Source of the DNA: Boothiomyces macroporosus
Lineage: Eukaryota > Chytridiomycota > Chytridiomycetes > Rhizophydiales > Terramycetaceae
Direction: 5' to 3'
Assembly: GCA_027604185.1 (NCBI GenBank)
Contig: JADGKB010000064.1
Location: 17,602-81,601 of the forward strand
DNA length: 64,000 nt
Positions 1-64,000 of this stretch are shown in pieces. The notes beneath the pieces are model-generated. The model ran no database searches. It saw only the letters and a list, made by a program, of their open reading frames with translations, and was not told where the DNA came from. Both the position numbers and the translations under genes were made by a program. Positions within the stretch are counted from its first letter, which is position 1. Each line of letters opens with the position of its first letter.

Positions 1-2121
1 TTATTCAAGCAAAGGTCTTTAGGTTTGACTTTTAAATGATGTATATGAATGAATTCGTGGCATATCTCTATTAGCTCCACAACATCTCTTGGAGGATTGC
101 AATTCAAAATATCCTTGAAATAACCCTGGTACTTGTTTCCTGAGGTGTCCAGGTTGAACCATTCTTCAGTTATTTGTCTCTTGATTTCAGTTTTCGCCGC
201 AGGTGATAATGGAATGATTTCTAACAAATTGAATTCTAGATTAACAATAATTACTTTTTTCTAGTAATGCTCTCTCGAATAGGACGGTATTCAGGTCAGT
301 TGTGTCAATCTTTATAATTTCATTAGCTTTCAACAGTTCACTAATCACCTGTCTATCCAATGGAACACGTTTGAGAGCCGGCAAAACATACTGAGGTTGC
401 AATCTATAGAAATTCAAATTCAATCCAAATGAATGAAAGAGCTCTAAAATATCAAGCTTTTTTCGCATCTCTTGCACTTTTGGATATTGTATATCTTGTA
501 AATCATCATCAATATCCCATCCACCCCCCTCCCAATCATCATTATTCGTAGATTTGGGATCTTGATTCAATATGTCGTACCATTCGTTCAAATCCACATC
601 CAAATCATTACTGTTAAAGTAATCAATAACATAATCAAACATTTCTGTTCCAACAAAAAGCTGCAAATTTCCTTTTTCAATATTAATTTTAACAAACTCA
701 ATTTTTTCATTAGAGTCCAATATTTTTAACAGTTGAACATTTTCACAATTCTCTATTAATTCTTGATTTGGCATTTGCTGGATCTGTTCAATTGTGAACG
801 AAGACTGAACCATTGAAGATAGTCTAGTATCTTGCAAGTAATAATCAATCATATTGGCTGCATTCATGAATAATCCGGCATTCCTCAATTCTTGAATTCG
901 AGATAAAATTGATGTAGTGTCAACTGTTTCTTCCACAAAATCAGACTCTTGTTGGAATATTTTAAAGTAATACTCTTTTTTTGATTTGGGGGTGAATAAA
1001 ACGTTAATATGCAATGGAAAGTATTCCAAGATTGAATAATCACAGAAGGGAAGCAATTTGAAGATATTGTCATTGCAACTTGAAGCTAGGTTTTGTGTGT
1101 AGGATGCAAAATCCAAATATTTTTGATACTCTGTTTCAATATCTATAAAAGACTTGATGTAAATTTCTTCAAAGACAGATAATCTATCCAACAGGATTTG
1201 TAATTCCAGTTGATCATTCATTTCATTGTACAAGTCATCGTAATTTTCATTTAGTATTTGGTCAATTGTATCATCAAGTGAAAGTTGCTTCAATCCATAA
1301 TTCAGCAATTTCTTTATGCTTGAAATAGATTTTGCACTTGATTTAATTTCGCATTTGATGAATTCTGGTCCGCATTTTTCCAGCAATTGGAAGTCAATCA
1401 AATCTTTATCTTTTTTTACCAAGTATTGGTATTGGAATAACTTAGTAACGGCTTCGTTATCTGGTTGAAAGGAATAGTCCAAGTATTTACCCAAGTCATT
1501 ATCTTTAAGATAGTAAATCAGTTCCCTGGTATCTGTTTCAAACAAGACCTTGTCTTTGGTATAAATGAAATCGTCCTCAACCCTAATTTCCCCACTAACC
1601 TTTTTTTCATCTATTTTTTTCAACTCTACTTTTTTTGCTTTTAAATCCTTCAATTCAATTTCTTTATGCAAACTTTTATCTGTATTTTGAATTTTAATAT
1701 TATCTTGGATTGAATAAAACGATAATCTAGAATTTTCCAATAGCAGCAAGCCATCCTTGTAGAAATAATATTCACCCTGGTCCAAAGAGTAAAGCAGTTG
1801 CAAATCAAGATTGAAAACATATGTTTGATCCAGCGAGACTAGTATCTTGTCCTTTGACAAATTCATATGGTGATAATCACTCTTCTGGAAGCATATCGAA
1901 TTGCTGGTTGGAATATTTTGCTTTTGGTACCTAACAAGCACTGGTGTGCTCTTCAGGAAATTCCTGATTCTATTCCCAACCACAAACACATAATCTGAGG
2001 ATTCTACAAAGTTGGAAACCAGGATATCAAGAGAATATTTAGACCCTTGTAACTGAATTGTATTCTGGTGAAAAATAGCTTGTTTGAATTCATTTGCTTT
2101 TTCAATCTCCAAGATTACCAT
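1..2121 (-). CDS. Large protein, 3' end beyond window; weakly Sec39/NBAS-like
   Basis: The first ATG on the minus strand is at 2121. The frame runs about 620 codons, then a 19-nt GT-AG intron at 236-254 restores an open frame that continues to base 1 without a stop, so the C-terminus lies outside the window. The N-terminal half is beta-rich with repeated hydrophobic strands. The C-terminal half is helical and carries an acidic Trp/Asp patch near residues 540-555. This beta-then-helical layout faintly recalls NBAS/Sec39, the ER tethering factors, but I see no decisive motif. The gene is confident; the family call is not. Confidence 0.6.
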
Positions 2122-2148
2122 TTTAAAAAGCAAGCAATTAAAATCCAA

Positions 2149-2622
2149 CTTTAAAAAAGTTGAAGCTTATTGACAAACTCAATTTAAACTTTATCGTCCT
2201 ATCACATGGAAATAATTTCGAGAATTTAATTTTGAATTCAATTCCTATTGGCGGAGCATTTCCTCTAGATCATCTGTTGAAAATCTCTTGAAGCAATCTA
2301 GCATCTAGCAATCATATGGCCAATGGCAAAATAGCAAATTTTATATCGTGGCCAATCAGCAACTAGTGCGCGCCGTCTCATTGGCTGGATAAAAAATACA
2401 TATGACATTGTAGCAGATGATCAGTGAAACATGTGATTAAAAATTAATATTCCATCCATTCAACAGAAATGCAATTTGATTATTCGAATCTGCTGCTGCT
2501 AATCCAAAGTAGAATTTACAATCTTCTTTTTGTTGCAATTTAGCAGGGAATAATAGAATTAGACTTTTTTCCACGTGACCGAGGCATATATAAACTTGCG
2601 AAAATTCTTTTAGAATCAAAAA
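2149..2622 (+). promoter_or_regulatory. Malate synthase upstream region: TATA box and four CCAAT boxes
   Basis: No gene is seen in this interval. A TATATAAA element lies at 2587-2594, 29-36 nt before the malate synthase ATG. CCAAT pentamers occur at 2320-2324 and 2352-2356 on the plus strand, and at 2247-2251 and 2380-2384 in reverse. CCAAT boxes are bound by the HAP/NF-Y complex, which controls carbon metabolism genes in many fungi; that role here is inferred. Confidence 0.5.
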
Positions 2623-4272
2623 ATGTCATCAGTTGGTATTAAAGTTTTGGCTCCAGTTCCACCTCAACATCAAGACACACTCTCTGCTCCTGCATTGAAA
2701 TTCTTGGCTACTCTCAACCGCACATTCAACCAAAGAAGAAAGGATTTGCTAGCAGTCCGTGTAAAGCGACAAGAACGAATTGAAAAGGGTATTTTTAGTT
2801 AATATAGGCGAAGTGCCAGATTTCTTGCCTTCCACCAAATGGATTAGAGAAGATCCGACATGGAAAGCTGCTCCTCCTGCCCCTGGCTTAATCGATCGCA
2901 GAGTAGAAATCACTGGCCCAGTTGACCGTAAGATGGTTATCAATGCCTTGAACTCTGGTGCATCTACCTTTATGGCAGATTTTGAAGATTCAAACGCTCC
3001 GACTTGGGAAAACTGTCTCTCTGGACAAACTAATATGAAAGATGCTGTTCGCAGAACAATCACCTTTACTGCTCCAAATGGAAAATATTACAAACTAAAA
3101 GACAAGATCGCAACTTTGTTGGTTAGACCAAGAGGCTGGCATATGGAAGAAAAGCATGTATTGGTTGATGGTCAGCCAATGTCTGCTTCGTTGTTTGACT
3201 TTGGTTTGTACTTTTTCCACAATGCAAAGGAAACCGTTGCTAGAGGATTCGGTCCATACTTTTACTTGCCAAAGATGGAAAGCCATTTGGAAGCCAGATT
3301 GTGGAACGATGTATTTAACTTGTCCCAGGACATTCTAGGTGTTCCAAGAGGTACTATCCGCGCTACTGTATTGATTGAAACTATTCTTGCCAGTTTCGAA
3401 ATGGATGAAATCATTTACGAACTTAGAGAGCACTCTTCTGGATTGAACTGTGGAAGATGGGATTACATCTTCTCCTTCATTAAAAAGTTTAAACACAACC
3501 CTAAATTTGTCTTGCCAGATCGTGGTGATGTAGGTATGACCACTCCATTCATGGATGCTTATGTACGCCTTTTGATCCAAACTTGCCACAAGAGAGGTGT
3601 CCACGCTATGGGTGGTATGGCTGCTCAAATTCCGATCAAGGATAACCAAACTGCAAACCAAATTGCTATGGACAAAGTCCGAGCTGATAAATTGCGAGAA
3701 GTTCAAGCTGGACATGATGGTACCTGGGTTGCCCACCCAGACTTGGTTACTCTTGCCAAGGCAGTATTTGACAAGCACATGCCACAACCAAACCAATTGT
3801 TTGTACGCAGAGAAGATGTTAAAGTATCTGGTCAAGATTTGATATCCACTCAAGGCGTCAAAGGTAACATCACCGAAAAAGGTGTCCGTTTGAACATTAA
3901 TGTATCTCTCCAATACATGGAAGCATGGATTAGGGGCTCGGGTTGTGTACCAATCCACAACATGATGGAAGATGCTGCTACTGCAGAAATTTCAAGATCG
4001 CAAGTATGGCAATGGGCTAAACACAACTCTAAAACTGTCGAGGGTGTGACTGTTACTCCAGAATATGTATCTAGAATCTTGCAAGAAGAAACTGATGCAA
4101 TCATCAAGTCTCTCCCACCAAACCAAAAACACAGATTTGTAGAAGCAAAGAAATTGTTGGAAGGAACTTTGCTAGGCAGAGACTATGCTGAATTCTTGAC
4201 AGTAATTGGATTTTTTAACCTTAGACTTTGGCTTATGATTCTATTACCAACATCAAGGGCTCCAAGCTTTAA
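2623..4272 (+). CDS. Malate synthase (glyoxylate cycle, peroxisomal)
   Basis: Condenses acetyl-CoA with glyoxylate to malate. The spliced product is 535 aa, normal for the family. Recognisable blocks include [10 protein letters not shown], the RPRGWH motif, a [13 protein letters not shown] segment and [10 protein letters not shown]. Two tiny introns are required: 2789-2807 (19 nt) and 4202-4224 (23 nt). The second introduces a short last exon ending in Ser-Lys-Leu, a PTS1 peroxisomal signal. If that intron is retained, translation runs on to a different tail ending near 4321 with no PTS1. The start is set by the ATG 30 nt downstream of the TATA box. Confidence 0.96.
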
Positions 4273-4734: not shown

Positions 4735-6002
4735 TTATTTGGATTCCTTTTTCTTCAAATGTGCAGGAGAGCATTTGGCATACTTGCTTTTTTCAATTAC
4801 TAGAGGCATTTGTTTTCCAATTAGATACAGTCGGTTTTGAGATTTCAAGAGTAGATGATCTTCGCTTGCCAAGTAGTGGCCAAATATATATCCAGTCATG
4901 TAAGCGTCGAATACAGCCGAGTGGGTCTGTTCAAACAATCCGCGGGCTATAAAAGTAAACTCTGAATTCGCAGGTTCAGCTTTTACTTTTTTTGACTTGT
5001 GCTTACCTTCTTGGTGGTCAAGAATCAAGTCAAGTGAATGGGATAGCTGACAATCTCTGCCTTCTTGGCAGACACCGTGATTCTGAGTTAATTCTAATTT
5101 ACTGCAAATTGCTCGCAGAATGGCTTGCCAGTTGAATGGGATTTTTGAATCTTTGGTGCTAAACCTATATTATTTGGATTTACCCATCTCCCATAGCTTT
5201 AGACTTGTTTTTACTGTCTTGTGTTTGATGGAATCTTTAATTTCTACCTCCATCCACTTTTCGCCCTCCTTCTTTCGATCTTCCTGCTGGCGCTCACTAT
5301 GTTAACACTGCTTACTATTTCCTGAATAAAAGCGACAGAAAGGAAGCTTTCTCTCTGACAATGTAATCAGAGATGTACTTTGTGTCAAATAATTTACCTG
5401 TAAACATTTCACTGACGTCTGCAATGAATGTAGGCAGCGTTGGGGGCAATTCAGCATAGAACGACTGATACAAAAATACCAAGTCTAGCATCCCGTTATG
5501 TAATACAACCGGACATTCCTGGTTTAATATATCCATAAACAAATCTACTTAGGAATAAAATACCTCTAAATATCGTGTTGCCTTGTTTGTCGTTTTGTTC
5601 AAGGACGACATCGTTCCCTGGATAATATGGAATTCCATTCCGGAACTGGTCATTGAAATCAAATCCATGCTCTACTAAAAATGACATGCTGGACGGAGAG
5701 ATTTTGTGTGGAGAGGTACACAACATTACAAAATGGAAATTACTGACTTTGTACTTTGCACACTCCTGATCTTGAACTAATTCAAAAACAGATAGTCCAA
5801 CGGCGTTAACTGCATGTGTTTTAGCCAACTCCACTAATGCGGTATAGCGGTCTTCGATATTTTGGTCTTTGGTTTTCTTGTCGCCTAACCCCGTGAACTC
5901 TGTGTCTATGGAAATATATTCCGCATTCTTTATTGCAAGCTTAATTGTGAGAGATAGTGTCTGAATATTGTGTCTGTTTACAATGGTGTATTCTCCCTTC
6001 AT
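4735..6002 (-). CDS. TOE1-like CAF1-family 3' exonuclease with CCCH zinc finger
   Basis: Spliced length is 396 aa with four introns: 5545-5563, 5297-5315, 5165-5183 (19 nt each) and 5083-5102 (20 nt). Catalytic DEDD residues are visible: SIDTEFTG near residue 33, HNGMLDLVFLY in the middle, and HSAVFDAYMTGYIF near the C-terminus. A C-x8-C-x5-C-x3-H zinc finger is completed only by the fourth intron splice. TOE1 trims snRNA 3' tails and deadenylates RNA in the nucleus and Cajal bodies of animals; the role here is by homology. Zinc finger between catalytic segments is the typical TOE1 order. Confidence 0.9.
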
Positions 6003-8798: not shown

Positions 8799-8830
8799 TT
8801 AGTGGAAAAATTAATTTGCCTTTACGCGAA

Positions 8831-14859: not shown

Positions 14860-16256
14860 ATGAATATTTTCATGGCTGAAGAATTGGCATCTGCAACAAA
14901 AACGGCCTCGCATGTACTGCAGGCTTGCTCAAATGACGATAAAAATGTCGCATTAAGGTCTATACACAACCAGCTTAAAGAAAATAAGGATTTTATCATT
15001 CAACAAAACAAACTGGACCTGGAGTTTGCAAATCAAAAAGTAAAAAGCGGAGAATTATCGCAATCCTTGTTCAGCCGCTTGGATATCGAAAAGAAATACG
15101 ATTCACTATTGCAAGGCGTGCTGGATATCGAGCAGTTACCTGACCCAACTGGACAAATACAGCTTGCCAAGCAACTGGATAATGGACTAGAGTTGTACAG
15201 GGTCTCATGCCCAGTTGGGGTTCTACTGATTATTTTTGAAGCTAGGCCAGAAGTAATTGTACAAATATCTTGTTTGGCGATTAAATCTGGGAACGCAGTT
15301 ATCCTAAAAGGAGGAAAGGAAGCCAATAATTCAAATATTTGCCTCATGCAGATGATTCAAAAGGCTCTACGTGAGAGTAATGTTATTCCTGCAGATGCGG
15401 TTCAATTAGTCACTTCCAGAGATGATATTGCGACACTGTTAAAATTAGATAGATATGTAGACCTTGTGATTCCTCGCGGTTCAAATGATTTGGTTCGATA
15501 TGTCCAAGAAAACACCAGGTTAGTGCTAATTAATTCAGAATCCCTGTTTTAGGTCATGCAGACGGAATTTGCTCTACATATGTCGATCAAAGTGCTGATT
15601 TGTCAAAAGCAGTGAAATTGGCAGTAGACGGAAAGGTATATTGGAGCTTATATTAGACAAACTATCCTGCAGCATGTAATTCGACGGAAACGCTATTGAT
15701 TCACACTTCTATTTTAAGCACTCATCTTCCAGCGATTGCAAAGGGGCTTTTGGAAAAGAATGTGCTGATCAGAGCTGACCAAAGCGCTTTTGAAGTATTA
15801 AACAAATCACATGCAAACTTAATTGGGAGTAGAATTGTCCACTCAGTCGCGCAAGACTACAAAACAGAGTTTCTTGATTTGGAAATTGCTGTAAAGACCG
15901 TCAACTCTGTAGACGAAGCTATTCAACATATTAACACGCATGGTTCAAAACACACAGATTGCATCGTTACTGAATCTAAAGCAAATGCCCAAAAGTTTAT
16001 GAAGTTGGTAGATGCTGCAGGAACATACTGGAACGCATCAACTAGATTTGCTGATGGTTTCCGATATGGATTTGGCGCAGAAATAGGTGTTTCAACAAAC
16101 AAGACTCACGCAAGAGGTCCTGTTGGATTGGAAGGGCTGATGATTTACAAGTACCAGTTGTTTGGTAATGGCCACTGTGTCGGAGAATACTCTGATGGTA
16201 CTAGACAGTACAATAGGGCTGATTTAAAACCTGAAAATTATTATAAACTTCAATAA
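14860..16256 (+). CDS. Glutamate-5-semialdehyde dehydrogenase (proline biosynthesis)
   Basis: Second step of proline synthesis: reduces gamma-glutamyl phosphate to glutamate semialdehyde with NADPH in the cytosol. The spliced product is 451 aa with introns at 15519-15538 (20 nt) and 15636-15656 (21 nt). Motifs include [49 protein letters not shown] (formed by the first splice) and [13 protein letters not shown] with the catalytic Cys (formed by the second). The first ATG is at 14860, with another in-frame at 14872. Confidence 0.95.
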
Positions 16257-21515: not shown

Positions 21516-23055
21516 TTATTCCTTGTGCTTTACTGCTTCAGACTCCAATTCACCATTCTTGATGACAGTCTTAAATTGTTCAGACACTGGCTTTTCAGTA
21601 AATTCTCCATTTTCAGTTGGAATCAAAATGTTCATTTCAGAAGATTTGGCACTCAAGATTTCAATATCAAGACATTCCTTGGACAAGTACAATTGGAATC
21701 CATCAGTCTTATCTACAACTGCAGTTGGGCACTTGCCAGTAATCTGAATTTGGAGACGTTGGCAGTTAACAGCATCCAGAGTAGCGACAATGTTTTCAGC
21801 CAATAGTCCAACTTTTTTGCAGTTGTCTAAGTATAAAAGGAAAGTTACCAAGTGAAATAGCGTTAACTTTACCCATGACTTTGATTGTACTGTTTTGACA
21901 ATTGTAGATATAAACAGTGTGTTTGATTTCAGTTTGGTCAATCACAATATCATTGTTACCGTTGTAGTTTTCAACAACCCACTTGCTACCTTCAAGAGCC
22001 AACTTTGGTGGTCCTTTTGGAGCGCTATTTCCTTTAGGAGCGGAAGAAACTAAATAAAGCACCATTTACCTGGCTTTTCAACAGCTTTTACGACACTTCC
22101 AGCCCTTAGTTCAGGGTTCTTGTGTGTCATTTCTGACTTGTCCACTTTACGAAGACCAGAAGTGCCCTTGCTCAATTCGCCCAACAAATCTGCAGGGTTA
22201 GGAGCGGCAGGTTTTGAAGGAGTAGAGAAGGATTCCAATTGTGCAGCAGTTGGAGCAGGTGGTGGAGGTGGAGCTCCTCCAGCAGGCGCAGGTGCCGCAG
22301 CTCCGCCAACATCTAGAATTAGGGCTATCATTACTTGCAGACTTTGCGTCCCCTCCTTTTGGATTCCATGCAAGACCAGTGGTGTGCCATTGTTTAACAT
22401 ATGCCTGCAACTCAGCAAGAATTGCCAAATAACTGTTGACCCATTCTACATGAGTAGGTTCCCTTGCTTTAGAGCCATATTACTTGTCCTTGTTATCTTT
22501 GATTACACGGTTGGCATAGAACTGGGCTGCATCTTTCATTTCTCCAATATATGGGGCAGGGGTGGGGGCAACTACTACCCATCCAAGAGCTGGAATACCA
22601 TCTGCGATGGCTGAAAGATGGTAAAATAATGGTGAAGGTCTGTTCTTGTCCTTGATTTCTGTAACTGCCATAATAGCCTTCTGCAAAGGTGAAATAATTT
22701 CTTGAAGTGTTTTATCATCTGGTTTTTTGGATACTGCTGCAATTGCAACTGCACGTTAGTATAATGTACCAATCTTTCTAGCTGCTTCAAATGCGCGTGA
22801 AACTTCATGAACCTGAAATTAATCATCCTATACTTGTTTATCAACTAATTCGCCGATTGATTTTGATTGCGTAATAAAGGATTGTAAAGAGCCAGAGATA
22901 ATTGCATCCAAAGCACTGACGGAAGGAGAGGAGGCAGCAGGGGCAGCAGCATTCCCAGCCGCTGGAGCTCCAGCTTTTTCTCCATTTGCAATAACGTCCA
23001 ATCTTGCGGCTGTGGCTTCGAGTCTTTCAATTAAGCTTGCAAGTCTTGACTCCAT
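21516..23055 (-). CDS. Adenylyl cyclase-associated protein (CAP/Srv2)
   Basis: Spliced 470 aa with six introns: 22813-22833, 22749-22769, 22463-22483 (21 nt), 22313-22334 (22), 22050-22069 (20), 21837-21858 (22). Order of domains: N-terminal helix [14 protein letters not shown] typical of Srv2 cyclase-binding, Ala/Pro linker, helical folded domain, polyproline stretch near the centre, WH2-like segment, then the C-terminal beta-helix CARP domain ([16 protein letters not shown]). CAP recycles cofilin-ADP-actin and, in fungi, couples Ras to adenylyl cyclase. Its presence beside a receptor array is notable but need not be functional. Confidence 0.95.
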
Positions 23056-29238: not shown

Positions 29239-30562
29239 ATGGAAGTTGACTGGCCAGACCGATGGCAAAATGTACACCACTATTTAAAGAGAGCTGCGCC
29301 ATTTTCAGTAGAAGGATTTCAACCAGGTTCAGAAGTAATCGAATACCTCCACGAATGTTCAATTTGCATCATCGGTGCTGGAGGACTTGGATGCGAATTA
29401 ATAAAGAATCTGGCAATGACGGGATTCAAAGATATTCATATTATCGATATGGACACAATTGATGTATCGAATCTCAATAGACAGTTCTTGTTTCGCCAAA
29501 AAGACGTTGGCAGGAGTAAAGCCGAAGTTGCTGCTGAATTCATCATGAGCAGAGTCCCTGGATGTAAAGTAACACCGTATTTTGGAAAGATTCAAGATAA
29601 AGATGAAGAATACTATTCGCAATTCACTTTGATTATATGCGGGTTGGATTCTGTAGAAGCTAGAAGATGGATGAATGCAATGATTATCGGAATGTATGAT
29701 GAAGAAGACCCTTCTACTCTAAAGCCGCTGATTGATGGCGGCACTGAAGGATTCAAAGGGCAATCAAGAGTTATATTACCAAGAATGACTGCATGCTATG
29801 AATGCTCATTAGAAATGCAGACTAAACCAAAGACATTCCCCATGTGTAATTTTACTTGAACGTTAGGTACCATTGCGAATACTCCTAGATTGCCTGAGCA
29901 TTGTATTCAATTTGCATCTCAAGTTCAATGGCCAGAGGAATTTAAAGATAAAAAGTTGGATGGTAGCTTATGTTAATTGCAGGTGATGACCCAGAGCATA
30001 TTCAGTGGTGTTTACGTAAAGCAAAGGAAAGGGCAGATCAATACGGGATTCGTGGGATTACATACTCTTTGACCCAAGGGGTAGTAAAGAATATCATTCC
30101 TGCAATCGCATCCACTAATGCAATAATCGCTGCTTCTTGTGCCAATGAAGCTTACAAATTGGTTACGGGATGCGCAGGATCAATGCAAAACTATATGATG
30201 TATGTCGGCGATGCTGGGATTTACACTTATACTTTTGCCTTGGAACGCAAAGAAGAATGTCCAGTTTGCGGCTCTGCATTGTTGCAATTTGAAATGGATA
30301 AAAACAGTTTGCTTCAAGACTTGATAGACTTGCTATTAGAAAAGAATGAAGTGTAAGTAATATTAATTATAGACAGTTAAAGCGGCCGTCATTGCGTACA
30401 TCTAGCAAGTCACTTTACATGCAAGCACCACCGCAGCTGGAACAAATGACTCGCAAGAATTTGGAAATGAAGCTTCAAGACTTGTTTACATCCAATGAAG
30501 AGATTAATGTAACCGACATGAATCTGCCAATTTCTCTCCGCTTACATGTCAAATTAAAATAA
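29239..30562 (+). CDS. UBA3: NEDD8-activating enzyme E1 catalytic subunit
   Basis: Spliced 420 aa with introns at 29846-29866 (21 nt), 29963-29982 and 30353-30372 (20 nt). ATP-binding [14 protein letters not shown], the DxDxID motif [16 protein letters not shown], and the catalytic-Cys block [16 protein letters not shown] (formed by splicing, PMCT cysteine). The C-terminal ubiquitin-fold domain that recruits Ubc12 ends in HVKLK. Forms a heterodimer with Ula1/APPBP1 to activate NEDD8/Rub1 for cullin modification. Confidence 0.96.
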
Positions 30563-33761: not shown

Positions 33762-34544
33762 ATGAAAATGGAAAAACGCTTGCAACTAGAATTCCAAACT
33801 AACCAATTAATTTCCTTTCACGTTTCAGCAGACTTGAAAGTAACCCTAGTATTCCCCCACATTGTCTATGATAATATCGACTTTTACCTGTTCAAATCCA
33901 GCTGTCAAACCGAAATCATCTTGCCGTACAATTTGGATATCGCAATTCAGCTAGGCTACAAAATCAAAGAAATCTTAAAGTAATTCTTACTAACTAGATT
34001 TGTAGTTACTGTCTATTCAGATACTGAAATCCCGCATACAATCGATTACGAAATCAAGCGTGATTATTTGGATTTACGGTACTTGATTAAATCAGGTAAC
34101 TTATTCTTACAAGGTTTTAAAATACTGTTTTATGTAAAGAATGATGATTACAATTATATTGTTTATTTGCAATTAGAAACAGAAGTTAAATTATTGGTTG
34201 TTGGTGAACGGGAGCTGGGGCTTGTGCTTGGAATGTATGATCATTCGCTAGAGGAATTTCAGATTATGGATAGAGAATGCACTCCTAGTGACTGTCCAAG
34301 TTTAACTAGCGAAGATTGTACACCATCAAAGCCTGGAAAAAACCAAGAATTCACTCTTGTGAAAAGTTTTAATACTTTGTTTGACGAGTATATGATGCAA
34401 GGAGCTGAGATAGTTTGCAAGACCAAGGTAAGTTGAAAATGATAGACTAAACGAGATAACGTGTACTCTGTTAGGGTTTTGCTGGATACAAAAATGAAAT
34501 TCTTTCCTCAGGTTAAAGCAGAAACTATAAAGAAATATGAATAA
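33762..34544 (+). CDS. Unrecognised 248-aa protein with two 18-nt introns
   Basis: Exons 33762-33979, 33998-34427 and 34446-34544, separated by two 18-nt introns, the shortest in the window. The product alternates beta strands and charged loops, with a Cys/Ser/Pro-rich insert around residues 160-185 (RECTPSDCPS, SEDCTPSKPG). The beta-rich pattern could suit a sliding-clamp or C2-like fold, but no family motif is evident. Its TAA ends two nt before the stop codon of the convergent NOC3 gene. Confidence 0.75.
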
Positions 34545-37390: not shown

Positions 37391-38541
37391 TCATTCAGCT
37401 TGGTCTATTACATCCTGCAAATACATTTCAAAATCCTCTTCGTCTAATTCTTCATATGAATCTATCCTGCTTTGTGTAGATAGTATTTTGATATAATTGA
37501 ATGCTGGGGTTAATTCATGGTACCTCCTATTCCAATTAAACTCAATATCAGCCCGAAAATCATATTGGGCGTGAATTTATCTTTGAATATCAAAGCGGAA
37601 ACAACCAGAGTCAATATTTCCTAAATTCAGAACAAGCATACTTTGAATATTCCAGCAATTGATAATGTAACTACTGATGTTGTTGAAATTAACGCGAATT
37701 CGAAATTGACCATTGTAAATGCTATACATCCTCCAAATGATACCACCAGCAATAACCAAATCGAACCAGAGAAGTTAGCGAAATGCGGGTTAGCCAAGAG
37801 GGCAGAAAATCCTTCCAGAGTAACAAAACTGAAAAATAATGATACTGCAATAATTGGAGCAATGAATAAATTAGTTGCGAGTGGATTGTTCATTCCCATC
37901 TTTTCATTTTCCAGCAATACCTGGGTAATTGCCCATCTGAATCCTGACAAAACTGTGGCAATTTGGATTTGCGCATATCCAAAAGCATCAAATTTTGTTT
38001 CATTCGCAACCATAATTCCAACACCCGCACAAATGATTATTACTGCTATTGTGATTCTCCATGACGGTTTCTCTAATCCAAACAGGAATGCAAATAATAA
38101 TACAAAGACAGGAGCTGATATTAGCTAAACATACCTGCTGACTTCACCATCGTATAAAATGATAGTGAGATAAACTAGGTAAATAGTAAAGTACTTTGAG
38201 TGAAGAGTTGCTCAGTCCAATGTCCAATCCTGTCGATATCCCACACGGAACCACTTTGAGCAAATAATCCCTAGGAGCCGGATACCGCTTGGGTTTGTAT
38301 GCCGGCAGAATCTGAAGCACTAAATAAGAGAGACTTCCTTGCATGATCATATGAACCATAGAGGTAAATAAGGGAAACTGAAAGTTGTCATAAGTCTTTG
38401 AAAATAGCCATTTGTTGTAGACATTAAGAGAAATGGAAGTAGAATACCACCCTGCAATACTCTAATTAATAATAATTACAGGAATAGAACTTTGAACAAG
38501 TGGCTCCGTTTGTGTGGAGTAGAAACCAACGAGGATATCAT
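37391..38541 (-). CDS. SLC35C2/Ymd8-type triose-phosphate/nucleotide-sugar transporter family
   Basis: Spliced 349 aa with five introns: 38460-38479, 38175-38194, 38115-38134 (20 nt), 37621-37641 (21), 37504-37523 (20). About ten TM segments. Motifs: NVYNKWLF in TM1, GLDIGLSNSSL in TM3-4, FYTMVKSAAP-like block assembled by two splices, and FRWAITQ. The first intron shifts frame and fixes the start at 38541 (MISSLVSTP). The C-terminal tail is acidic (EELDEEDFE). Golgi/ER localisation is expected from family. Confidence 0.9.
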
Positions 38542-38624: not shown

Positions 38625-39701
38625 ATGTCACGGATGGTGAAGCAGATGCGATCGTTGTCTACCAAGCGACAACTAGGCTTAAACGGCCCATATGTTAGCG
38701 CATTAGGCTTGGGAGTAATGGGAATGTCTGATTTCTATAATCCGAGTGCCCAGAATAGAGATGCGGAGCATATAAAGTTGCTGCATGAAGCAATAGATAT
38801 GGGGTGCACGTTTTGGGATACTGGTAATAGATACTTATTATAGCGGATGTTTATGGACCATATACAAACGAAATACTTATTAGTAAAGTCTTGAAGGAGC
38901 GCAGAAATGAGGTGTTTGTTGGGACAAAGTTTGGATTTGTAAGAAATCCCGATGGATCGTTTGATGGCATTTGTGGTAAGCCTGAATATGTTTTCAAAGC
39001 GTGCGATGCTAGTTTAAAGAGACTGGGAGTTGAAACCATTGATTTGTGTACCTGATTAGTAATCTAGATTATCAGCACAGACCTGATCCTAATGTTCCTA
39101 TTACTGAAACTGTTCAAGCAATGTCAGAGTTGGTTAAGCAAGGAAAGGTTCGGTATTTGGGGCTTTCAGAGTGTTCTGCAGAGCAAATTCGCCTTGCTCA
39201 CAAAGTGCATCCAATATCTGCTTACCAAGCTGAATTCAGTCCTTGGCACACAAAACTAGAATCTGATGGAAGATTAGAAGCTTGTAGGGAACTGGGAATT
39301 GCAATTGTTCCGTATTCTCCTCTTGGACGCGGATTTCTAACTGGAACCATCAAATCATTCGACGATCTTGACCCAAATGACTGGTAAACGATTCTGATTA
39401 TAGGAGAAGAAAGAATCCTCGATTTCAAAAGGGTGCGTTTGAAAAGAACTTTGAGTTGGTAAAAGCTTTCACACGAATGGCCCAAGCTAAAGGAATCCCA
39501 ACTTCGCAATTATGCTTGGCGTGGGTGCTATCCCAAGGCAGTGATTTTATCCCTATTCCAGGGACAAAACGTTCCAAATACTTGAAAGAAAATTGGGGGA
39601 GTTTGCAAGTAGAATTGTCAGATAAGGAAAAGAAGGAATTGCGAAAGATCATCAATGAAATTCCGATTGAAGGAGGGCAATTAAATATCTTGAAGAAATA
39701 A
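38625..39701 (+). CDS. Aldo/keto reductase (YakC/pyridoxal reductase-like)
   Basis: Spliced 338 aa with three 20-nt introns (38824-38843, 39048-39067, 39384-39403). Catalytic Asp and Tyr in WDTADVYGPY (made by the first splice), Lys in GTKFGF, and His in DLYYQHRPD (made by the second). C-terminal NADP-binding [13 protein letters not shown]. Reduces small aldehydes or ketones in the cytosol. Distinct from the AKR7-type gene at 7785. It is divergent from the transporter gene, 83 nt apart. Confidence 0.95.
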
Positions 39702-50250: not shown

Positions 50251-53200
50251 TTAACCGTGAGGTTTTCTTTTGGTAGTATCATACAACGCAACAACTTTGT
50301 TTTCTAGTTGTTGATCATTTTGAGAAAAGGCGTATCCATATCCAAGGTTCATTTCCTTCATTTTCTGAATTTTGCTTACGGTAGTGTGGAACCATTGAGC
50401 TTGAACGCTATAGTCTGGAATATTGTGCTTTTGAATTTCTTGTATTATGTGATATGATTGAGGGGCAAAGAAGCGTTTATAGCTAATATTAGTAATGTCT
50501 TACAATTTCCATGCAAAATCTCGGAGATTGATTGCAAATGGAAGGAAAATGAGTGATAGGAAGAATGTCACTGAACCAAATACTGCTGTATTAACATTGA
50601 ACAGCTCCTTGGAAATATACTTTGGACCCAAATCATTTAAACAATACTACCATTAGACAATATTTACTATCGGTAGAAGAATATAGTAAGCAAAGAGAGA
50701 ACCAAAGATAGAGAAAAGCGTCCATCCATTGAACAAATCGATAATTAAGCAATGCTTTATCATCACAGTGGTTAAAGCTGTAACGTAAACAAAAATACCA
50801 AATACCCAGTTGTCTGAAACAAGCCCATTTGCCAGAATATCGCTATCGCCCAAAATATAAACCCACCCATAGAATAATAGCAGAGAGTGGAAAATGGCAT
50901 TTAATATCCAGAGAATAAAAATGTAGTGGTTGTAAAAGCGGTCGTCTTGTCCATTTCTATACATTCTTGGATACTTGAATAGAACTTGGGCACTTATATA
51001 TTGATCAAATATACCAATAGCGATTGGAGGAAGCAGAGTCCACGCAACATTGTAAGAAGAAACCCCTGACCATGTCTCAAATAGTGTCTGGGTTAGAAAG
51101 TAATTACCATTCCAGAAAAGAAATTACTAAACGTAAACCAGCACTGTATCAGATAGAGCGCCAAGTTCTTGTAGAATGAGATTAGGATAACTTTGGATAT
51201 ACGAGAATATGCCCATCCGCCATGAACGAGCAGGAGCTTTCGGAGGTATCTGAACTGCCCGATTGCAAAATCTGCTGAGCGAGCAGCCTGAAGCCCTTCT
51301 TGTCCTGAAATACCCACTCCCACATTTGCCGACTGAATCATACTGACATCGTTGGCACCGTCACCAATAGCAAGGGTAACTGCACCCGCGACATTATTCT
51401 TTACCAGTTTAACCACCAAAGCCTTTTGCAGGGGAGAGACTCTGCAACAGATCACTGATTTGCAGAGGAGCGCAACTTCCAAGAAAATGTCTGAAATCTC
51501 TGGGTCAAGGGCGTGGGTTAGCGTATTTCCATCGATTACCAATGCCATCGGCTAATATTAAGCAGTTGTTACCTCAACTCCAACTCCGTAATCTTTATCA
51601 AACTTGGCATCCTTGACATGGATACCTCTCCAAAACTGTTTCCACTTTGACGGCCGGGTGTACTTTGTGGAAAGTCTCTTTTTTACGTCATTGAGCGCAT
51701 CTACCAAAAATGTTTTTGTTTCTTCTTTTGTTTCCTTGTTACACACAATCATCTCCATCTGGGGATTTAATAGCTTGCAAGATATACCAATATTGATTGC
51801 AGTATCTTGACGATCACCAGTCAGAACCCACATTCTTATTCCGGCTTCCAACAGATTGTAGATTGTTTCTGGGACACCTTCTTGAAGTTTATCTTCAATT
51901 GCAGTCGCACCTACCAAATGCAATCCTTTTTCAATCATTTCGGCTGCTTGGTCGAGCATCTCTTCTCTATTTGTGATCGAAGTTGCCGCCTTTTCATATA
52001 TATGGCGCCATTCTTGATACTCAGCTTCATCAATATCTCTGTAGGCATATACTAGGGTACGCAATCCTTCGTTAGCATATTCTTCCATATGTTGCATAGT
52101 TGCTTCTTTGAATGGACATCCAGAACCGAGCCTTTCTAATATAACAGTTTCTGCTCCTTTAACCATCAGCTTCACTTTTCCATCAGGTCCACGAACAACT
52201 AACGACATTCTCTTTCGTGTAGAGTTGAATTCGTTGACTTGGTAGATTTGATATTCTCTATCAACCCCATTGACATTAACTGTTACAGACTTTGGTCGAC
52301 GGGTCTACTATTAGTTCAAAATTACATGGAAAGTATAGCCCAGCTGTTTTGCCCCATCAACTAGAGCAACTTCATCAGGCGAAGAAGCTTGATAAATGAT
52401 TTTTGAAGGGTTTACTTCGTCTCGTTCAGGAATAACTGTGTGGCAAACTGAAAGTAGTGACAAGAATTCATCCAAGATTCTGCCTCTTTCCTTAGTTCTT
52501 AAATGTTGCTCTAGATGCGAAAAGTGGTAGTAACCTTTGCTGGAATCGATTTCACGACTGTCGGAATACGCATACCCTCCAGCAGATATTTTTCTAAATT
52601 CCATGATATTTCTAGTCAGAGTCCCAGTTTTGTCACTGAATATAAAGTCAATCTGTCCCAGTTCTTCTACCAAAGTTGTAGTTTTTGCTGTTGCTGGCAT
52701 GTCTTTCTCATCATAGTACATGTCCAAATCCTGATTGATATACATCCCAAGAACCAATTTGACAAATTCTAAACTAATCATCAAACTGAGAGGAATCAAG
52801 TTGTTGAAAAGAATCATAAATGTGAGAACATGCTCAAAGAATTGAAACGGTGTCGTAGGAGCAAATCCACCTACTGGTGATAGAATATCCTGAACAAAAT
52901 TGGTGGATTTTTCCATATACAGCTCCCCGACAGCACATCCAACAGCAAGCAGGACTAAAAACACAAACAACAAAATAACTTGTGAATTGACCATAGAATC
53001 TACTTTTGTTGATTTGATTGGTGTGGTGGTCGAGTTTTTCATTAATTTAGTTTCGTGGCCTGTAAATACAACCAATCCATAGATCCATTTCGTATTACGC
53101 AACTGTGCACCCTGAATTACTATAAAGTTACCCTTAATAACAATTGATTCGGCCCAACAGCTAGTTCTTGTCCAGCAAACCTCAATGTAGCCTTAAATGT

Positions 53201-53869
53201 ATACAAGGAATTATTTGGTAATTCTGTTTCAATAGTTCCTAGTTATTAAAAACAAGAACCTTGCAATTTTGCTACAGCTTCTGGAGAGAGTAGATTTCCA
53301 GTTTCTGGAAGACCTTGCCTAATCTTCAAATTGGTTTCCCCATCCAAGTTTGACGTTTCAATATAGCACAAAGAGTCTGGTTCCGATGTGGATATAATAA
53401 CTAAATCTGAAGGGAAATTCTGTCCATTTTCGACCCTTACGATTTCTCCAACTTTGACATCCTTCCAGAGCGTTTCCACAAATTTATTTCCACGCAACAC
53501 TTTACACTCGCTATTATTGACCGAACTATCTTGAGAATGTCTCTTTTTATCTTCCCACATCTCTTTGAATGCTGTAATGATGAAAATTGCAGCCAATGGT
53601 CCTGCAGTTGCAATTTTCGATGTTGGCGACCAGTCTCGGACTGGTTGAATGCACGATATGAATAAAAAGAACATGTTGGCGTATTTAGAAAAGAATTCAA
53701 GGGTAAATTTTGGAATAAAGGAGATAATTGAATACTTTCCTGTTGATATCTTGTTGCTGAGAAAGTCTCCTTTGCTGTTAATATCCACCGTTCTACTTCC
53801 ATCCGGGACATAGGTTTGAACTATCTGCTCCTGAGCCAAACCTAGCGTAACCAGAAGCGATTTTCCCAT
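50251..53869 (-). CDS. P4-ATPase (phospholipid flippase), copy A
   Basis: Spliced 1157 aa; seven introns: 53239-53259, 53112-53131, 52305-52325, 51552-51572, 51088-51107, 50647-50667, 50483-50503 (20-21 nt). Motifs: [20 protein letters not shown] in TM1, DGETNLK, PLSL in TM4, the phosphorylated [11 protein letters not shown] near residue 400, [16 protein letters not shown] and [11 protein letters not shown]. Drs2/ATP8A-like; it flips aminophospholipids at Golgi/plasma membranes with a Cdc50 partner (not in the window). The start at 53869 matches copy B. Confidence 0.95.
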
Positions 53870-53993: not shown

Positions 53994-56900
53994 TTAACCT
54001 CTTGGCTTTCTCTTGGTGGTGTCGTACAGCCTTACAATTGGTGATTGAGGCTGCTCATTCTGGGAAAACGCATATCCATAGGTATTGCGCATGTTTTTCA
54101 TTTTCTTTATCTTGCTAACAGTATTATAGAACCAAGGTGATTTTGGACGATAGTCTGGGATGTTCTGATGCTGAATTTCTTGGACAATATGATAACGCTG
54201 AGGAATATAGAATCTCTTGTAACTTTTGTTAAATAATACTTACAATTTCCAAGCAAAATCGCGAAGGTTGATTCCGATTGGAAGCAACAACAGGGACAAC
54301 CAAAATGTAATAGAATAGAACAGTGGCCAGTCAACATTAAAAAGTTCCTTGGAAATTAACTTTGGTCCAATAAAGCTGAGCGCATACTAATATTAATATA
54401 TCATTACAATTGGGAACAAGATGAAGAATGCAGCTAGCGATCCAAAAATGGCGAAAAGAATCCAGAAATTCAACAAATCAACAATTAGACAGTGTTTGAA
54501 CATCACAGTTACTAAAGTGGTAGTATAGACCATGATACCAAATACCCAGTTGTCAGAAACAAGCCCATTTGCCAGAATATCGCTTTCACCCAAAATCAGT
54601 GTCCACATGTAGAACAGAAGGAGGGAATGAATGATTGCATTCACAATCCACTTTAAGAAGCTCTTGTGGTTGTAAAACTTGTCATCTTGTCCATTTCTGT
54701 ACATGGATGGGTACTTGAATAGAACTTGGGCACTTATATATTGATCGAAAATTCCGATTGCTATAGGTGGCAACAATGTCCATACCACGTTGTAGGATGA
54801 AACTGCTGACCATGTCTCAAATAGTGTCTGGGTTAGAAAGTAATTACCATTCCAGAAAAGAAATTACTAAACGTAAACCAGCACTGTATCAGATAGAGCG
54901 CCAAGTTCTTGTAGAATGAGATTAGGATAACTTTGGATATACGAGAATATGCCCATCCGCCATGAACGAGCAGGAGCTTTCGGAGGTATCTGAACTGCCC
55001 GATTGCAAAATCTGCTGAGCGAGCAGCCTGAAGCCCTTCTTGTCCTGAAATACCCACTCCCACATTTGCCGACTGAATCATACTGACATCGTTGGCACCG
55101 TCACCAATAGCAAGGGTAACTGCACCCGCGACATTATTCTTTACCAGTTTAACCACCAAAGCCTTTTGCAGGGGAGAGACTCTGCAACAGATCACTGATT
55201 TGCAGAGGAGCGCAACTTCCAAGAAAATGTCTGAAATCTCTGGGTCAAGGGCGTGGGTTAGCGTATTTCCATCGATTACCAATGCCATCGGCTAATATTA
55301 AGCAGTTGTTACCTCAACTCCAACTCCGTAATCTTTATCAAACTTGGCATCCTTGACATGGATACCTCTCCAAAACTGTTTCCACTTTGACGGCCGGGTG
55401 TACTTTGTGGAAAGTCTCTTTTTTACGTCATTGAGCGCATCTACCAAAAATGTTTTTGTTTCTTCTTTTGTTTCCTTGTTACACACAATCATCTCCATCT
55501 GGGGATTTAATAGCTTGCAAGATATACCAATATTGATTGCAGTATCTTGACGATCACCAGTCAGAACCCACATTCTTATTCCGGCTTCCAACAGATTGTA
55601 GATTGTTTCTGGGACACCTTCTTGAAGTTTATCTTCAATTGCAGTCGCACCTACCAAATGCAATCCTTTTTCAATCATTTCGGCTGCTTGGTCGAGCATC
55701 TCTTCTCTATTTGTGATCGAAGTTGCCGCCTTTTCATATATATGGCGCCATTCTTGATACTCAGCTTCATCAATATCTCTGTAGGCATATACTAGGGTAC
55801 GCAATCCTTCGTTAGCATATTCTTCCATATGTTGCATAGTTGCTTCTTTGAATGGACATCCAGAACCGAGCCTTTCTAATATAACAGTTTCTGCTCCTTT
55901 AACCATCAGCTTCACTTTTCCATCAGGTCCACGAACAACTAACGACATTCTCTTTCGTGTAGAGTTGAATTCGTTGACTTGGTAGATTTGATATTCTCTA
56001 TCAACCCCATTGACATTAACTGTTACAGACTTTGGTCGACGGGTCTACTATTAGTTCAAAATTACATGGAAAGTATAGCCCAGCTGTTTTGCCCCATCAA
56101 CTAGAGCAACTTCATCAGGCGAAGAAGCTTGATAAATGATTTTTGAAGGGTTTACTTCGTCTCGTTCAGGAATAACTGTGTGGCAAACTGAAAGTAGTGA
56201 CAAGAATTCATCCAAGATTCTGCCTCTTTCCTTAGTTCTTAAATGTTGCTCTAGATGCGAAAAGTGGTAGTAACCTTTGCTGGAATCGATTTCACGACTG
56301 TCGGAATACGCATACCCTCCAGCAGATATTTTTCTAAATTCCATGATATTTCTAGTCAGAGTCCCAGTTTTGTCACTGAATATAAAGTCAATCTGTCCCA
56401 GTTCTTCTACCAAAGTTGTAGTTTTTGCTGTTGCTGGCATGTCTTTCTCATCATAGTACATGTCCAAATCCTGATTAATATACATCCCAAGAACTAATTT
56501 GACAAATTCTAAACTAATCATCAAACTGAGAGGAATCAAGTTGTTGAAAAGAATCATAAATGTGAGAACATGCTCAAAGAATTGAAACGGTGTCGTAGGA
56601 GCAAATCCACCTACTGGTGATAGAATATCCTGAACAAAGTTTGTTGATTTCTAAGTTAATCAGCCAGTACCTCCATGTAAAGTTCGCCAACGGCACAACC
56701 AACAGCCAACAAAATAAGAAATACGAACAACAAGACTACCTGTGAGTTTACCATTGAATCCACTTTGGTGGATTTGATTGGAGTTGCGGTAGAGTTTTTC
56801 ATAAGCTTCGTTTCATGACCAGTAAAAACCACCAGGCCATATGCCCATTTAGTATTTCTCAACTGAGCACCCTATATTTAACAAGACTTACTCTCAAGAG

Positions 56901-57629
56901 CAGTTGGTTGGGTCCAATCGCCAATTCTTTTCCGTTAGCGCGCAGAGTGGCTTTGAATGTATACAAGGAATTATTTGGTAATTCTGTTTCAATAGTTCCT
57001 AGTTATTAAAAACAAGAACCTTGCAATTTTGCTACAGCTTCTGGAGAGAGTAGATTTCCAGTTTCTGGAAGACCTTGCCTAATCTTCAAATTGGTTTCCC
57101 CATCCAAGTTTGACGTTTCAATATAGCACAAAGAGTCTGGTTCCGATGTGGATATAATAACTAAATCTGAAGGGAAATTCTGTCCATTTTCGACCCTTAC
57201 GATTTCTCCAACTTTGACATCCTTCCAGAGCGTTTCCACAAATTTATTTCCACGCAACACTTTGCACACACTGTTATTGACTGCATTGTCCTGAGCATGC
57301 CTCTTGCGATCCTCCCACATTTCCTTTAGTGCTGTAATTATAAAAATTCCAGCTAATGGACCTGCAGTTGCTACTTTAGAGGTGGGAGACAAATCCCCAA
57401 TAGGCTGAATGCATGAAATAAACAGAAAGAACATGTTTGCATACTTTGAAAAGAATTCAAGTGTGAATTTAGGAACGAATGAAACGAATGAATACTTTCC
57501 TGTTGAAATTGCATTGTGTAAATAATTTCCTCCGCCATTGATTTCTACAGTTCTACTACCATCGGGAACGTACGTCTGAACAATTTGTTCTTGGGCAATC
57601 CCCAAGGTTACCAGTAGCGATTTGCCCAT
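53994..57629 (-). CDS. P4-ATPase (phospholipid flippase), copy B
   Basis: Spliced 1156 aa with eight introns: the seven of copy A at equivalent positions plus a 20-nt intron at 56651-56670, inside the [11 protein letters not shown] segment, which copy A lacks. All catalytic motifs are intact. Much of the sequence from 54806 to 56638 is nearly identical to copy A, whereas the first and last parts differ clearly, so the copies have been partly homogenised. Both likely functional. Confidence 0.95.
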
Positions 57630-60469: not shown

Positions 60470-60524
60470 TTCGGGAAAACTTTTTATCACTGCAACATTG
60501 ATCAAAACTCATTTATATTCGATT

Positions 60525-62165: not shown

Positions 62166-62226
62166 TTTTCAGTTGTGGGAGTTTGGGCAGCAAAAAAATG
62201 TGAGGGAAAAATCAAAGCAAAAATGG

Positions 62227-63863
62227 TTAATTTATTGTCAATCGTGGTCCTACTTGAGGGTTTACATTCGGTAATACTCCGCTGCAAGCCTTGAAATTAG
62301 CATATTCAAGGGCAACTAGTGATGGCTCCGCGATTTGAAGAAGGTACTCAAATGTGGTCACCAACGCTGCCGAGCAGACTTTAAGATCATACAGCTTTCG
62401 CAGAATCAAATAGTGCACATTAAGAGCGCTGACAATCCTGGTATTTTGTTCAGGTAACTGCGGGATTTTAGACGCCAGGATGAGTGGGAGAGCAATGTGA
62501 AAGATCAAAAATGTTTGGACAGAGAGGAACGTAAACGTGTCTTCCTTTGTAATAAAGTGCTGTAGCATATCTGCTGTATATAGGGATGCCGCAATGGATT
62601 CTTTGTATTCTGTTGTTTTTCCAACATTGATGAAATCTTGGATAAGCAGCTGCAGCAGGCTGTTGCTTAGTAAATTAATTTTAATGAAATTGAATTTGAT
62701 TACAACATTCATCACTTTGTAGGTGAATGCAGGATTTTCTGACTGGGAGTTTGTACGTGCCAGATTGATGTGATGAGTGATGCTCTCTGGGAGAGAATTA
62801 AACCACATGTTCAACGAGTTTAATAGAGTTCCTTGAATGTACTTGTTACTCATCACCTGGTCCTGATCGTAGTACCGTTTCTTGTATTCTAGGGTCTTTG
62901 TGAATATTCTGTGTAGCAAAACTCTGTAAAAATCGATACTCTGATTCTTGAAGGGAGGTGTGAACCAGTCGGAAGACTGCATGACAGAAACAGCAGCCAA
63001 AGCAGTTTCGTGTTCAGAAGCTGTGGTAAGTTTGTGGTCCATTGGCAAGAACACTGCATGATCTTGATCTTTCATCACTGATAATCCTCTTTCTGTAAAG
63101 TAGTTATCAGATAAATGGATCATCCACCAGGTTGCTCTATAGTTGAAAAGCTCCGTTGGATCTTTTGCCAGCACTTTGAGTTGAGCTTCGTTATTCATTC
63201 CCAATTCCTTTGCCATTTCATATGCAATCGCCAGATATTTGTATCCTTCATTATCTATGTTAGCCTTTGCAAACCTTTTTTGAAACGAATGCAGCATATG
63301 CACAGCATAATCCACGCTACGACATTTCGAGGATGCGGTGGCAATATTGCTGAGACATATGACTTTGCCCTTTCCAGATAAAACACTGACATATCCTGAG
63401 AGTCTCTAAATCCAGAAAGCACTTCTGGCGGTGCAATTACACCTGCAAGTGCGTAAATCAAATATCGAATTGGCATTGAAACCTCTGCTAAATGAACCAA
63501 GTAATCTTCCGTAACAAAAAATAGAGAGACATCCAAACTCTTTAGTCCAAGTGCCAGTAAATCGTTATCAATTTGGTCAACCAGTGTTTCATTAGATTGG
63601 CTAGACGGTACATCCTGGCCGGTGTAGCTATTCATAGAGAATGACTTTGTCTCCTTCTTTTTCAAAAACTGCTCCAATTTTGCTAATCGTTCCTCAATCT
63701 CTCTTTCAGATTGATCTAAATTTGAGCTTTCTGGATATGAACATGAAATTCCAGATTGCGTACATGTGTAGCATGATGGCCTGGCTCTGTCGCATTTGCG
63801 CTTCTGTATTTAGGTATGGGTTACCTTTGTCATGCAGTAATTGCACGAATATGATTTTCTCAT
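62227..63863 (-). CDS. Zn2Cys6 fungal-type transcription factor 3
   Basis: Spliced 531 aa; introns 63804-63824 (21 nt) and 63255-63274 (20 nt). Zinc cluster CNYCMTK|KRKCDRARPSCYTC...C, Lys/Glu coiled linker (EERLAKLEQFLKKKE), then the helical regulatory domain (TWWMIHLSDNYFTERG). Closest in order and structure to factor 2. The promoter occupies the last 137 nt of the window, where nothing else is recognised. Confidence 0.9.
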
Positions 63864-64000
63864 TTTAGTTGAAAAATTGGGGGGTTTCAAAGTTGAACAA
63901 ATTTAAAAATGCACAACAAAAATTTGCTGACATGTATAATTTCTCTCCTTTAAATCCCACCCATAAGGGCAGTAGAAGGGAGACCGATTGGGGGCAGTAA

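Follow-up and report, generated by a model that had tools for sequence, protein, structure and literature searches.

Introns of about 20 nucleotides, some of them back to back, in the chytrid fungus Boothiomyces macroporosus

Introduction

Boothiomyces macroporosus is a chytrid of the order Rhizophydiales that lives as a soil saprotroph. In a stretch of 64,000 nucleotides (nt) of its genome (contig C64, positions 17602-81601; hereafter the window), many genes are interrupted by segments of about 20 nt. Are these segments genuine introns, do they prevail in the genome at large, and does their removal imply an unusual spliceosome? Our results point to U2-type spliceosomal introns, nearly all of 18-23 nt with a median of 20, which would act through ordinary pairing with the U1, U2 and U6 RNAs; we give this reading a probability of about 0.94. 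We also describe arrays in which complete tiny introns follow one another without any exon between them.

Results

Sequence sample and gene finding

The assembly counts 15,203,306 bases in 216 contigs. Part of the malate synthase encoded in the window has 100% identity with a public B. macroporosus protein, and the nearest matches otherwise come from further chytrids; the DNA is of neither nucleomorph nor ciliate origin. Our sample combined the window with one 10-kb stretch from each of 20 other contigs (264 kb in total), and the counts below refer to it unless stated otherwise. Genes were called on both strands with a three-periodic fourth-order coding model and states for exon, intron and intergenic sequence. 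The first run used a uniform length prior: GT..AG ends were the sole requirement, all lengths of 6-200 nt had equal cost and no motif was used. The second used donor, branch and acceptor signals learned from the first-run introns with a flat length of 12-200 nt, and the third the learned signals, learned lengths and a 5% flat tail. The signals were learned on the same sample, so only the dinucleotide control under the uniform prior is free of circularity. Divisibility of gene lengths by three is built into the model and carries no evidence; alignments with homologues do.

Length of the introns

Under the uniform prior, 168 introns were called, 64 of them at 18-23 nt (34 at exactly 20) and 104 at other lengths. 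The same machinery run on eight control pairs of dinucleotides returned 138-157 calls, with 3-13 at 18-23 nt and 135-147 elsewhere. The segments thus prefer GT-AG ends over other dinucleotides (64 vs 3-13), as expected of U2-type introns. When the learned signals were combined with a flat length, the calls rose to 331, of which 261 had 18-23 nt and 62 at least 40 nt. With learned lengths as well there were 371 introns in 129 of the 176 gene models. Nearly all (361) had 18-25 nt, with 3 introns at 18 nt, 79 at 19, 158 at 20, 82 at 21, 27 at 22, 10 at 23, and one each at 24 and 25 (mode 20, median 20, mean 20.2, standard deviation 1.04). None of the 371 was a simple intron of 26-39 nt, and ten had 40-158 nt. 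With 361 of 371 calls differing by only a few nucleotides and not exceeding about 25 nt, this is a tiny-intron regime, an assignment made by size class and not by descent. Intron density was 1.67 per kb of coding sequence, tiny introns were present in all 21 sampled stretches (4 to 86 each), and plain extrapolation from the 264 kb gives about 20,800 introns genome-wide.

A previous sequence-only reading of the window had placed 89 introns in 31 genes, with lengths of 18-23 nt and a mode of 20, and had described the regime as genome-wide-looking. Both statements hold up well: our model makes 88 intron calls in the window, 86 at 18-23 nt (44 at exactly 20), within 31 of 45 gene models, and the same size class recurs wherever we sampled. 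The two longer calls are doubtful, as the one of 158 nt bridges two adjacent genes, each with its own long open reading frame, and the one of 44 nt sits in a weak model of 123 amino acids.

That no longer intron was needed in the window had also been claimed, and this leads to the possibility of a mixed regime, in which genuine 20-nt introns would coexist with a substantial set of ordinary 40-200 nt introns that the model misses. The ten calls of 40-158 nt, and the 62 of at least 40 nt under the flat length prior, speak for it. Yet the uniform-prior run gave no sign of longer introns, because its GT..AG calls outside 18-23 nt (104) were fewer than in every one of the eight controls (135-147). 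Besides, one of the ten long calls is an abutting pair of 21 and 22 nt and another is the call that joins two genes, and a scan for the motif alone showed no peak at 24-60 nt. We saw no convincing sign of simple introns beyond this size; a mixed regime seems quite improbable.

This motif-only scan, made without a coding model, gave 78, 142, 76 and 24 matches at 19, 20, 21 and 22 nt at a threshold of 8, against a background of 15.8 per length at 30-60 nt, and the reversed sequence had no peak at 19-22 nt. When the motif was replaced by three letter-permuted decoys that kept its information and the length prior, 29-39 calls were made at 18-23 nt, against 359 with the real motif. This puts false calls at about 10%, an upper guess only, because decoys can substitute for true frame shifts. 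A depletion of introns divisible by three was considered and rejected, since at threshold 8 the motif-only excess at 19 nt (62) is close to that at 21 nt (60), with no clear depletion. Retention would bring an in-frame stop in 42 of 79 introns of 19 nt, 104 of 158 of 20 nt and 63 of 82 of 21 nt, counts that cannot be interpreted because the caller prefers introns that contain stops. The idea that the signals of 20-nt introns themselves supply stops in all three frames also failed, being true of only 28 of the 158.

Anatomy of the introns

A common anatomy was evident among the peak introns (seen in the 167 calls made just before the final retraining). The layout is a GTAATT-like donor of 6 nt, 4-5 T-rich bases, a YTRAY branch motif, 1-2 bases, and TAG or CAG. 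The most frequent donors among the 361 tiny introns were GTAATT (56), GTATTT (26), GTAAAT (24) and GTAAGT (23), and A (0.52) and G (0.48) were favored at the final two exon bases. The spacer between donor and branch mostly has 4-5 bases, with a T frequency of 0.41 vs 0.31 sample-wide. The motifs TTAAT (84), CTAAT (58), TTAAC (53) and CTAAC (29) together account for 224 of the 361 branch sites. The GT...AG ends of the sequence-only reading are borne out by the dinucleotide controls, and its TAAT/TAAC-like sequence reappears in the learned branch signal. The branch A lies at position 14 or 15 in 316 of 361 introns and is followed by 5 or 6 bases in 323. The acceptors were TAG (244), CAG (68), AAG (44) and GAG (5). 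There is no polypyrimidine tract, because mostly 1-2 bases separate the branch motif from NAG. Minor (U12-type) introns were considered, but the donor and branch frequencies do not fit the U12-type motifs, although no search for the U12 RNA was made.

Excision at the protein level

If these segments are introns, their removal should restore conserved proteins, and with one neutral case this is what we found. The spliced product of the CCT-theta gene has 74-96% identity with six chytrid orthologues and aligns without gaps at all six junctions; the only internal gap, seen in two of these orthologues, spans a single column close to the C terminus. It scores 776 bits with the CCT-theta model, and five other spliced genes of the window match Pfam families above their cut-offs. 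Elsewhere in the genome, U2AF65 rises from 230.7 bits when read through (cut-off 310.3) to 342.8 when five tiny introns are removed, and in Slu7 two separate matches (154.6 and 94.7 bits) merge into one of 294 bits.

Public proteins tell the same story. Some tiny introns are already spliced in the public annotation, namely the 19-nt intron of malate synthase and introns of a METTL2-like gene. Others were missed. The public malate synthase (P0001) reads through a 23-nt intron, and splicing it predicts a tail that differs by one residue from that of the sister taxon's protein (P0002). The METTL2-like gene product is 95% identical to the sister's protein (P0241), which is full to the end. Its public version (P0247) retains an 18-nt intron in frame as VLFYNQ and ends prematurely at a 19-nt intron, with 208 amino acids instead of 293. 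At least two public B. macroporosus proteins are thus wrong where the annotation missed tiny introns, and as a consequence gene-content comparisons of these chytrids may be biased. A Terramyces sp. protein (P0347) has segments missing in the same gene, which hints at the same annotation problem there.

Two neighboring genes of the window, encoding copies A and B of a P-type ATPase (Table 1), allow the introns to be compared between paralogues. Their exons are identical at 3058 of 3469 positions, including fully identical tracts. One intron of copy B is exactly absent from copy A, with the same frame on both sides. Three introns are common to both copies and have kept their position and length (20/20, 21/21 and 21/21) while their sequences differ. 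The two copies are fully or almost identical at alignment columns of about 400-600 and 1000-2800 but only about 64-79% alike elsewhere, as after gene conversion.

The segments might also be insertions made by sequencing or assembly, or elements of the DNA that do not behave as introns. Indel errors would also look like short frame-breaking segments, and we found nothing else in favor of this explanation. Against it, the segments have donor, branch and acceptor signals in common which match the U1 and U2 of this genome, they occur in all 21 stretches, they keep position and length in paralogues while diverging in sequence, and public proteins splice some of them. We regard this explanation as barely credible.

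Splicing machinery

The sequence-only reading had taken the near-complete overlap of donor, branch and acceptor sites to imply an altered spliceosome, and this part of it found no support in the components that we tested. The U1 RNA scores 68.8 bits, just below the Rfam cut-off of 69.5, and has a canonical 5' start, ATACTTACCTG. The donor GTAA agrees with the U1 stretch ATACTTACC, and the mostly T position +5 is a mismatch. There are two copies of U2, both with GTAGTA, with which the branch motif can pair, and U6 carries the canonical ACAGAGA. Whole gene models, all showing their expected domains and each with its own tiny introns, were obtained for U2AF65 (444 amino acids, three RRM stretches), SF1 (467 amino acids, with SF1-HH, KH and zinc knuckles), Slu7 (477 amino acids) and Prp18 (330 amino acids). 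Prp8 was read in part (PROCN domain, 775 bits), as was a gene with an RRM and a CCCH finger, which we take to be U2AF35-like. Of the components proposed for inspection, U1 and U2 thus have canonical recognition sequences, U2AF65 and SF1 have their usual domains, and both partly read proteins are encoded.

Work in yeast leads one to expect that a tail of 5-6 nt makes second-step factors needless. Their loss can be rejected here, as both Slu7 and Prp18 are encoded. The genome is not of a nucleomorph or reduced-parasite kind either, given its 15.2 Mb and the presence of U2AF65, SF1, Prp8, Slu7 and Prp18. Neither the components nor the recognition sequences that we tested lend support to an altered spliceosome. 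It is possible that some proteins have altered shapes, as conjectured for the branching factors of Stentor in the available portion of PMC9505925.

Back-to-back intron arrays

Outside the window, and hence invisible to the sequence-only reading, we found introns that directly follow one another. In the METTL2-like gene (L009, contig C6), three complete 19-nt introns abut: GTAATAATTACTAATCAAG, GTAATTTGACTTAACTCAG and GTAATTCATGTTAATTCAG. Their splicing joins HNAW to DNVEF, a stretch that is the same in the aligned orthologues save one residue position. The abutting pair of 21 and 22 nt that had been called as one long intron is a second case (L011). A genome-wide search for a pattern of two abutting units gave 20 matches, and its backward control gave none. 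Fifteen of the matches fall in 14 loci that we read, two belong to the L009 triple, and three repeat the letters of loci already read. Twelve of the 14 loci are arrays: nine pairs (L038-L042 and L044-L047), two triples (L036 and L037) and one quadruple (L043), whose third unit scores low. The other two were rejected, since the second unit of L034 does not resemble an intron over its full length and continues the exon reading frame, and the first unit of L035, in the U2AF35-like gene, codes for VTDFNEA. This exon stretch of L035 nevertheless scores strongly as an intron and lies directly next to a real one. The juxtaposition of acceptor and donor around a zero-length exon, a feature of recursive splicing, is thus present in the 12 arrays as well as in L009 and L011.

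In 10 of the 12 arrays the joined frame runs through the junction without a stop, over 20 codons upstream and 25 downstream; in L044 and L045 it would need further tiny introns adjoining the array. An apparent micro-exon of 9 nt lies in L044 between a 20-nt intron and the 21+20 array. Six joined products were compared with Pfam, and four cross the junction inside a domain above cut-off (Proteasome_A_N, V-ATPase_G, Vac_ImportDeg and SPX), while L036 and L037 gave sub-threshold matches only. In the 264-kb sample there are four abutting pairs, the L009 triple counting as two and L018, where the gene model uses the first unit only, being another. The mean at other gaps is 0.25-0.78, and the largest count at any other gap was 4, 3 and 2 at three thresholds.

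L036 has two identical 19-nt units and a third that is 84% alike, and its next exon begins with the same seven bases. In five other arrays with neighbors of equal length, the units were 0.45-0.79 identical. Random introns cover this range too (means 0.53 and 0.60), so that duplication of units is shown in L036 only. Identical intron pairs also occur at two places each in three cases (C18:75906/123516, C20:38206/83273 and C49:6403/C100:7998), pointing to recent segmental duplications or assembly duplicates.

Alternatively, each array might be one intron of 38-80 nt, excised whole with its inner sites unused. The reading frame gives the same result either way, and the public METTL2-like model removes the 57 nt whole. 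On the other hand, every unit has donor, branch and acceptor signals (weakly in the third unit of L043), one array holds two identical units, simple introns of 26-39 nt are absent from the 371 calls, and abutting pairs are in excess of other gaps, with the caveat that at the loosest threshold another gap also reaches four. Removal in a single step is in our view unlikely, though it deserves to be kept in mind. Stwintrons of the [D1,2] kind were rejected, as the units abut complete in the 12 parsed arrays and no donor is split between its bases 1 and 2. Judging from their signals, the units appear self-sufficient, and stepwise removal, in which each step would leave a usable donor, is most likely.

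Other genes of the window

The positions of genes and introns mentioned above, and of other intron-containing genes, are given in Table 1. Most gene models in this genome have introns, but six similar and mostly intronless genes lie in tandem at 6738-19551. By eye they encode seven-helix, receptor-like proteins, and the one that was searched against Pfam (10251-11150) had no match there. At 57861-63833, adjoining genes have the starts of zinc-cluster transcription factors, and of three such genes the one searched matches Pfam Zn_clus.

Table 1. Genes and introns of the window, in window coordinates
Feature	Position	Strand	Remarks
Malate synthase, 19-nt intron	2789..2807	+	Spliced in the public protein (between KG and EV)
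Malate synthase, 23-nt intron	4202..4224	+	Read through in public P0001
CAF1-family ribonuclease gene	4735..6002	-	Four introns (20, 19, 19, 19 nt)
Glutamate-5-semialdehyde dehydrogenase (proA) gene	14872..16256	+	Two introns (20, 21 nt)
CAP (adenylate cyclase-associated) gene	21516..23055	-	Six introns (20-22 nt); splicing gives almost complete CAP_N and CAP_C domains
Coiled-coil-looking protein gene (by eye)	26482..28992	-	Seven introns (19-22 nt)
ThiF / E2-binding (E1-like) gene	29239..30562	+	Three introns (21, 20, 20 nt)
CCT-theta gene	31932..33694	+	Six introns (20, 20, 19, 23, 20, 20 nt)
18-nt intron	34428..34445	+	One of two such calls in the window; the other at 33980-33997
TPT-family transporter gene	37391..38541	-	Five introns (20-21 nt)
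Aldo/keto reductase gene	38646..39701	+	Three 20-nt introns
Phospholipid-translocating P-type ATPase gene, copy A	50251..53869	-	Seven introns
Copy A, 20-nt intron	53112..53131	-	Copy-B counterpart at 56872-56891: equal length and position, sequence diverged
P-type ATPase gene, copy B	53994..57629	-	Eight introns
Copy B, 20-nt intron	56651..56670	-	Exactly absent from copy A; same frame on both sides

Discussion

Several observations weigh against U2-type tiny introns as the general rule in this genome. Donor position +5 is T (0.46) far more often than G (0.17), although U1 and U6 are canonical. The score of the SF1-HH domain was not raised by removing tiny introns (114.6 bits read through vs 113.8 spliced), which is the neutral case mentioned above. 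Searches of the genome for U5 RNA and for the RED_N domain gave no match, which is no proof of absence and may be a limit of the searches. The ten calls of 40-158 nt were individually not all disproved.

The last such point concerns the avoidance of chance introns in exons. Sense-exon matches per length were lower at 18-23 nt than at 28-60 nt, and synonymous shuffling of the called exons gave an expectation of 63.0 matches at 18-23 nt where 33 were found (none of 40 shuffles was as low), but gene calling itself strips exons of such matches. Other length classes in called exons were also below their shuffles, with ratios of 0.70-0.97, and of 0.45 at 24-27 nt. In 120 long open reading frames taken without intron calling, the ratio at 18-23 nt was 0.88 at threshold 6 (23 of 100 shuffles as low) and 0.89 at threshold 4 (14 of 100). 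At 24-27 nt it was 0.57 (0 of 100) and 0.79 (1 of 100), respectively, and at threshold 4 the classes of 13-17 and 35-41 nt were low as well (0 and 1 of 100 shuffles).

How would such introns be spliced? From the anatomy we infer a lariat loop of 14-15 nt and a tail of 5-6 nt. Recognition would rely on ordinary pairing with U1, U2 and U6 and on the early and second-step factors tested here. The introns are too short to hold a polypyrimidine tract, and U1 and U2 could scarcely bind next to each other. As the 4-5 bases that separate donor from branch motif cannot accommodate the two together, U1, then U6, and U2 would use nearly the same dozen bases in turn. The lower bound on length may be set by the geometry of the spliceosome, and the upper bound near 23 nt may reflect a lost ability, or a lost need, to span longer distances. 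If longer distances are no longer spanned or met, arrays would be cleared unit by unit. One may go further and suppose that splicing in this fungus proceeds in fixed quanta of about 20 nt, that only units of 18-23 nt can be removed, and that longer interruptions persist only as arrays cleared successively. We advance this tentatively and place its chances a little short of even. Were it true, the exact tandem duplication of a tiny intron would be harmless, and arrays and new introns could arise by copying units.

These results may be useful beyond this species. An intron-rich fungus in which the tested splicing parts look conventional would allow the minimum distance between donor, branch and acceptor to be studied without recourse to a reduced or very remote system, which makes Boothiomyces well suited to finding out how short an intron the splicing machinery can process. 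The arrays offer ready-made material for testing stepwise splicing and the birth of introns by duplication.

As far as our searches go, the size regime is of a familiar kind but new to the fungal kingdom. Searches of the open-licence literature for ultra-short introns in Boothiomyces, Rhizophydiales, chytrids or fungi gave no report, in line with the sequence-only reading, which knew of no fungal precedent; within that literature, this would be the first such regime in a fungus, and abutting arrays were not met in it. The comparisons that follow draw on portions of the cited papers. Narrow regimes of tiny introns are given for nucleomorphs (18-21 nt), heterotrich ciliates (15-16 nt) and mikrocytids (16-17 nt) (PMC10245619), and two species of Paramecium have median introns of 24 and 25 nt (PMC12862383). 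The introns of chlorarachniophyte nucleomorphs resemble those of Boothiomyces in their number and in their narrow range near the same size, but nucleomorphs are relic nuclei with tiny genomes (PMC10245619), whereas Boothiomyces has a genome of 15.2 Mb with every properly testable early or second-step factor present. In nucleomorphs, splicing is said to be poorer for introns of 21-27 nt than for those of 18-20 nt (PMC5014332). Stentor, with introns of 15-16 nt, shares with Boothiomyces a branch A near the end, a 5-nt tail and canonical U1 and U2, but its branch A lies at 10-11 without a strong consensus (PMC9505925), while that of Boothiomyces lies mostly at 14-15 in a strong YTRAY. The mikrocytid also has introns of uniform tiny size with a strong motif, but, unlike Boothiomyces, it is a parasite with 224 predicted introns and a reduced spliceosome (PMC10245619). 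Among fungi, Cryptococcus neoformans has the highest share of short introns in one comparison, with an average of 56 nt (PMC11913375), and a mean of 63 nt in an analysis of 644 fungal genomes, the available portion of which names no ultra-short regime (PMC8476143); its introns are nearly three times longer than those of Boothiomyces.

The arrays have partial counterparts as well. Fungal stwintrons, as described in the portions available, also place two introns at one site that are removed in succession, but there one intron lies inside the other and interrupts one of its splicing signals, whereas in Boothiomyces complete units of 19-22 nt abut. The ratchet points of animals, on similarly partial sources, come close in another way, since acceptor and donor are juxtaposed there without an exon between them, as in our arrays, but within long introns.

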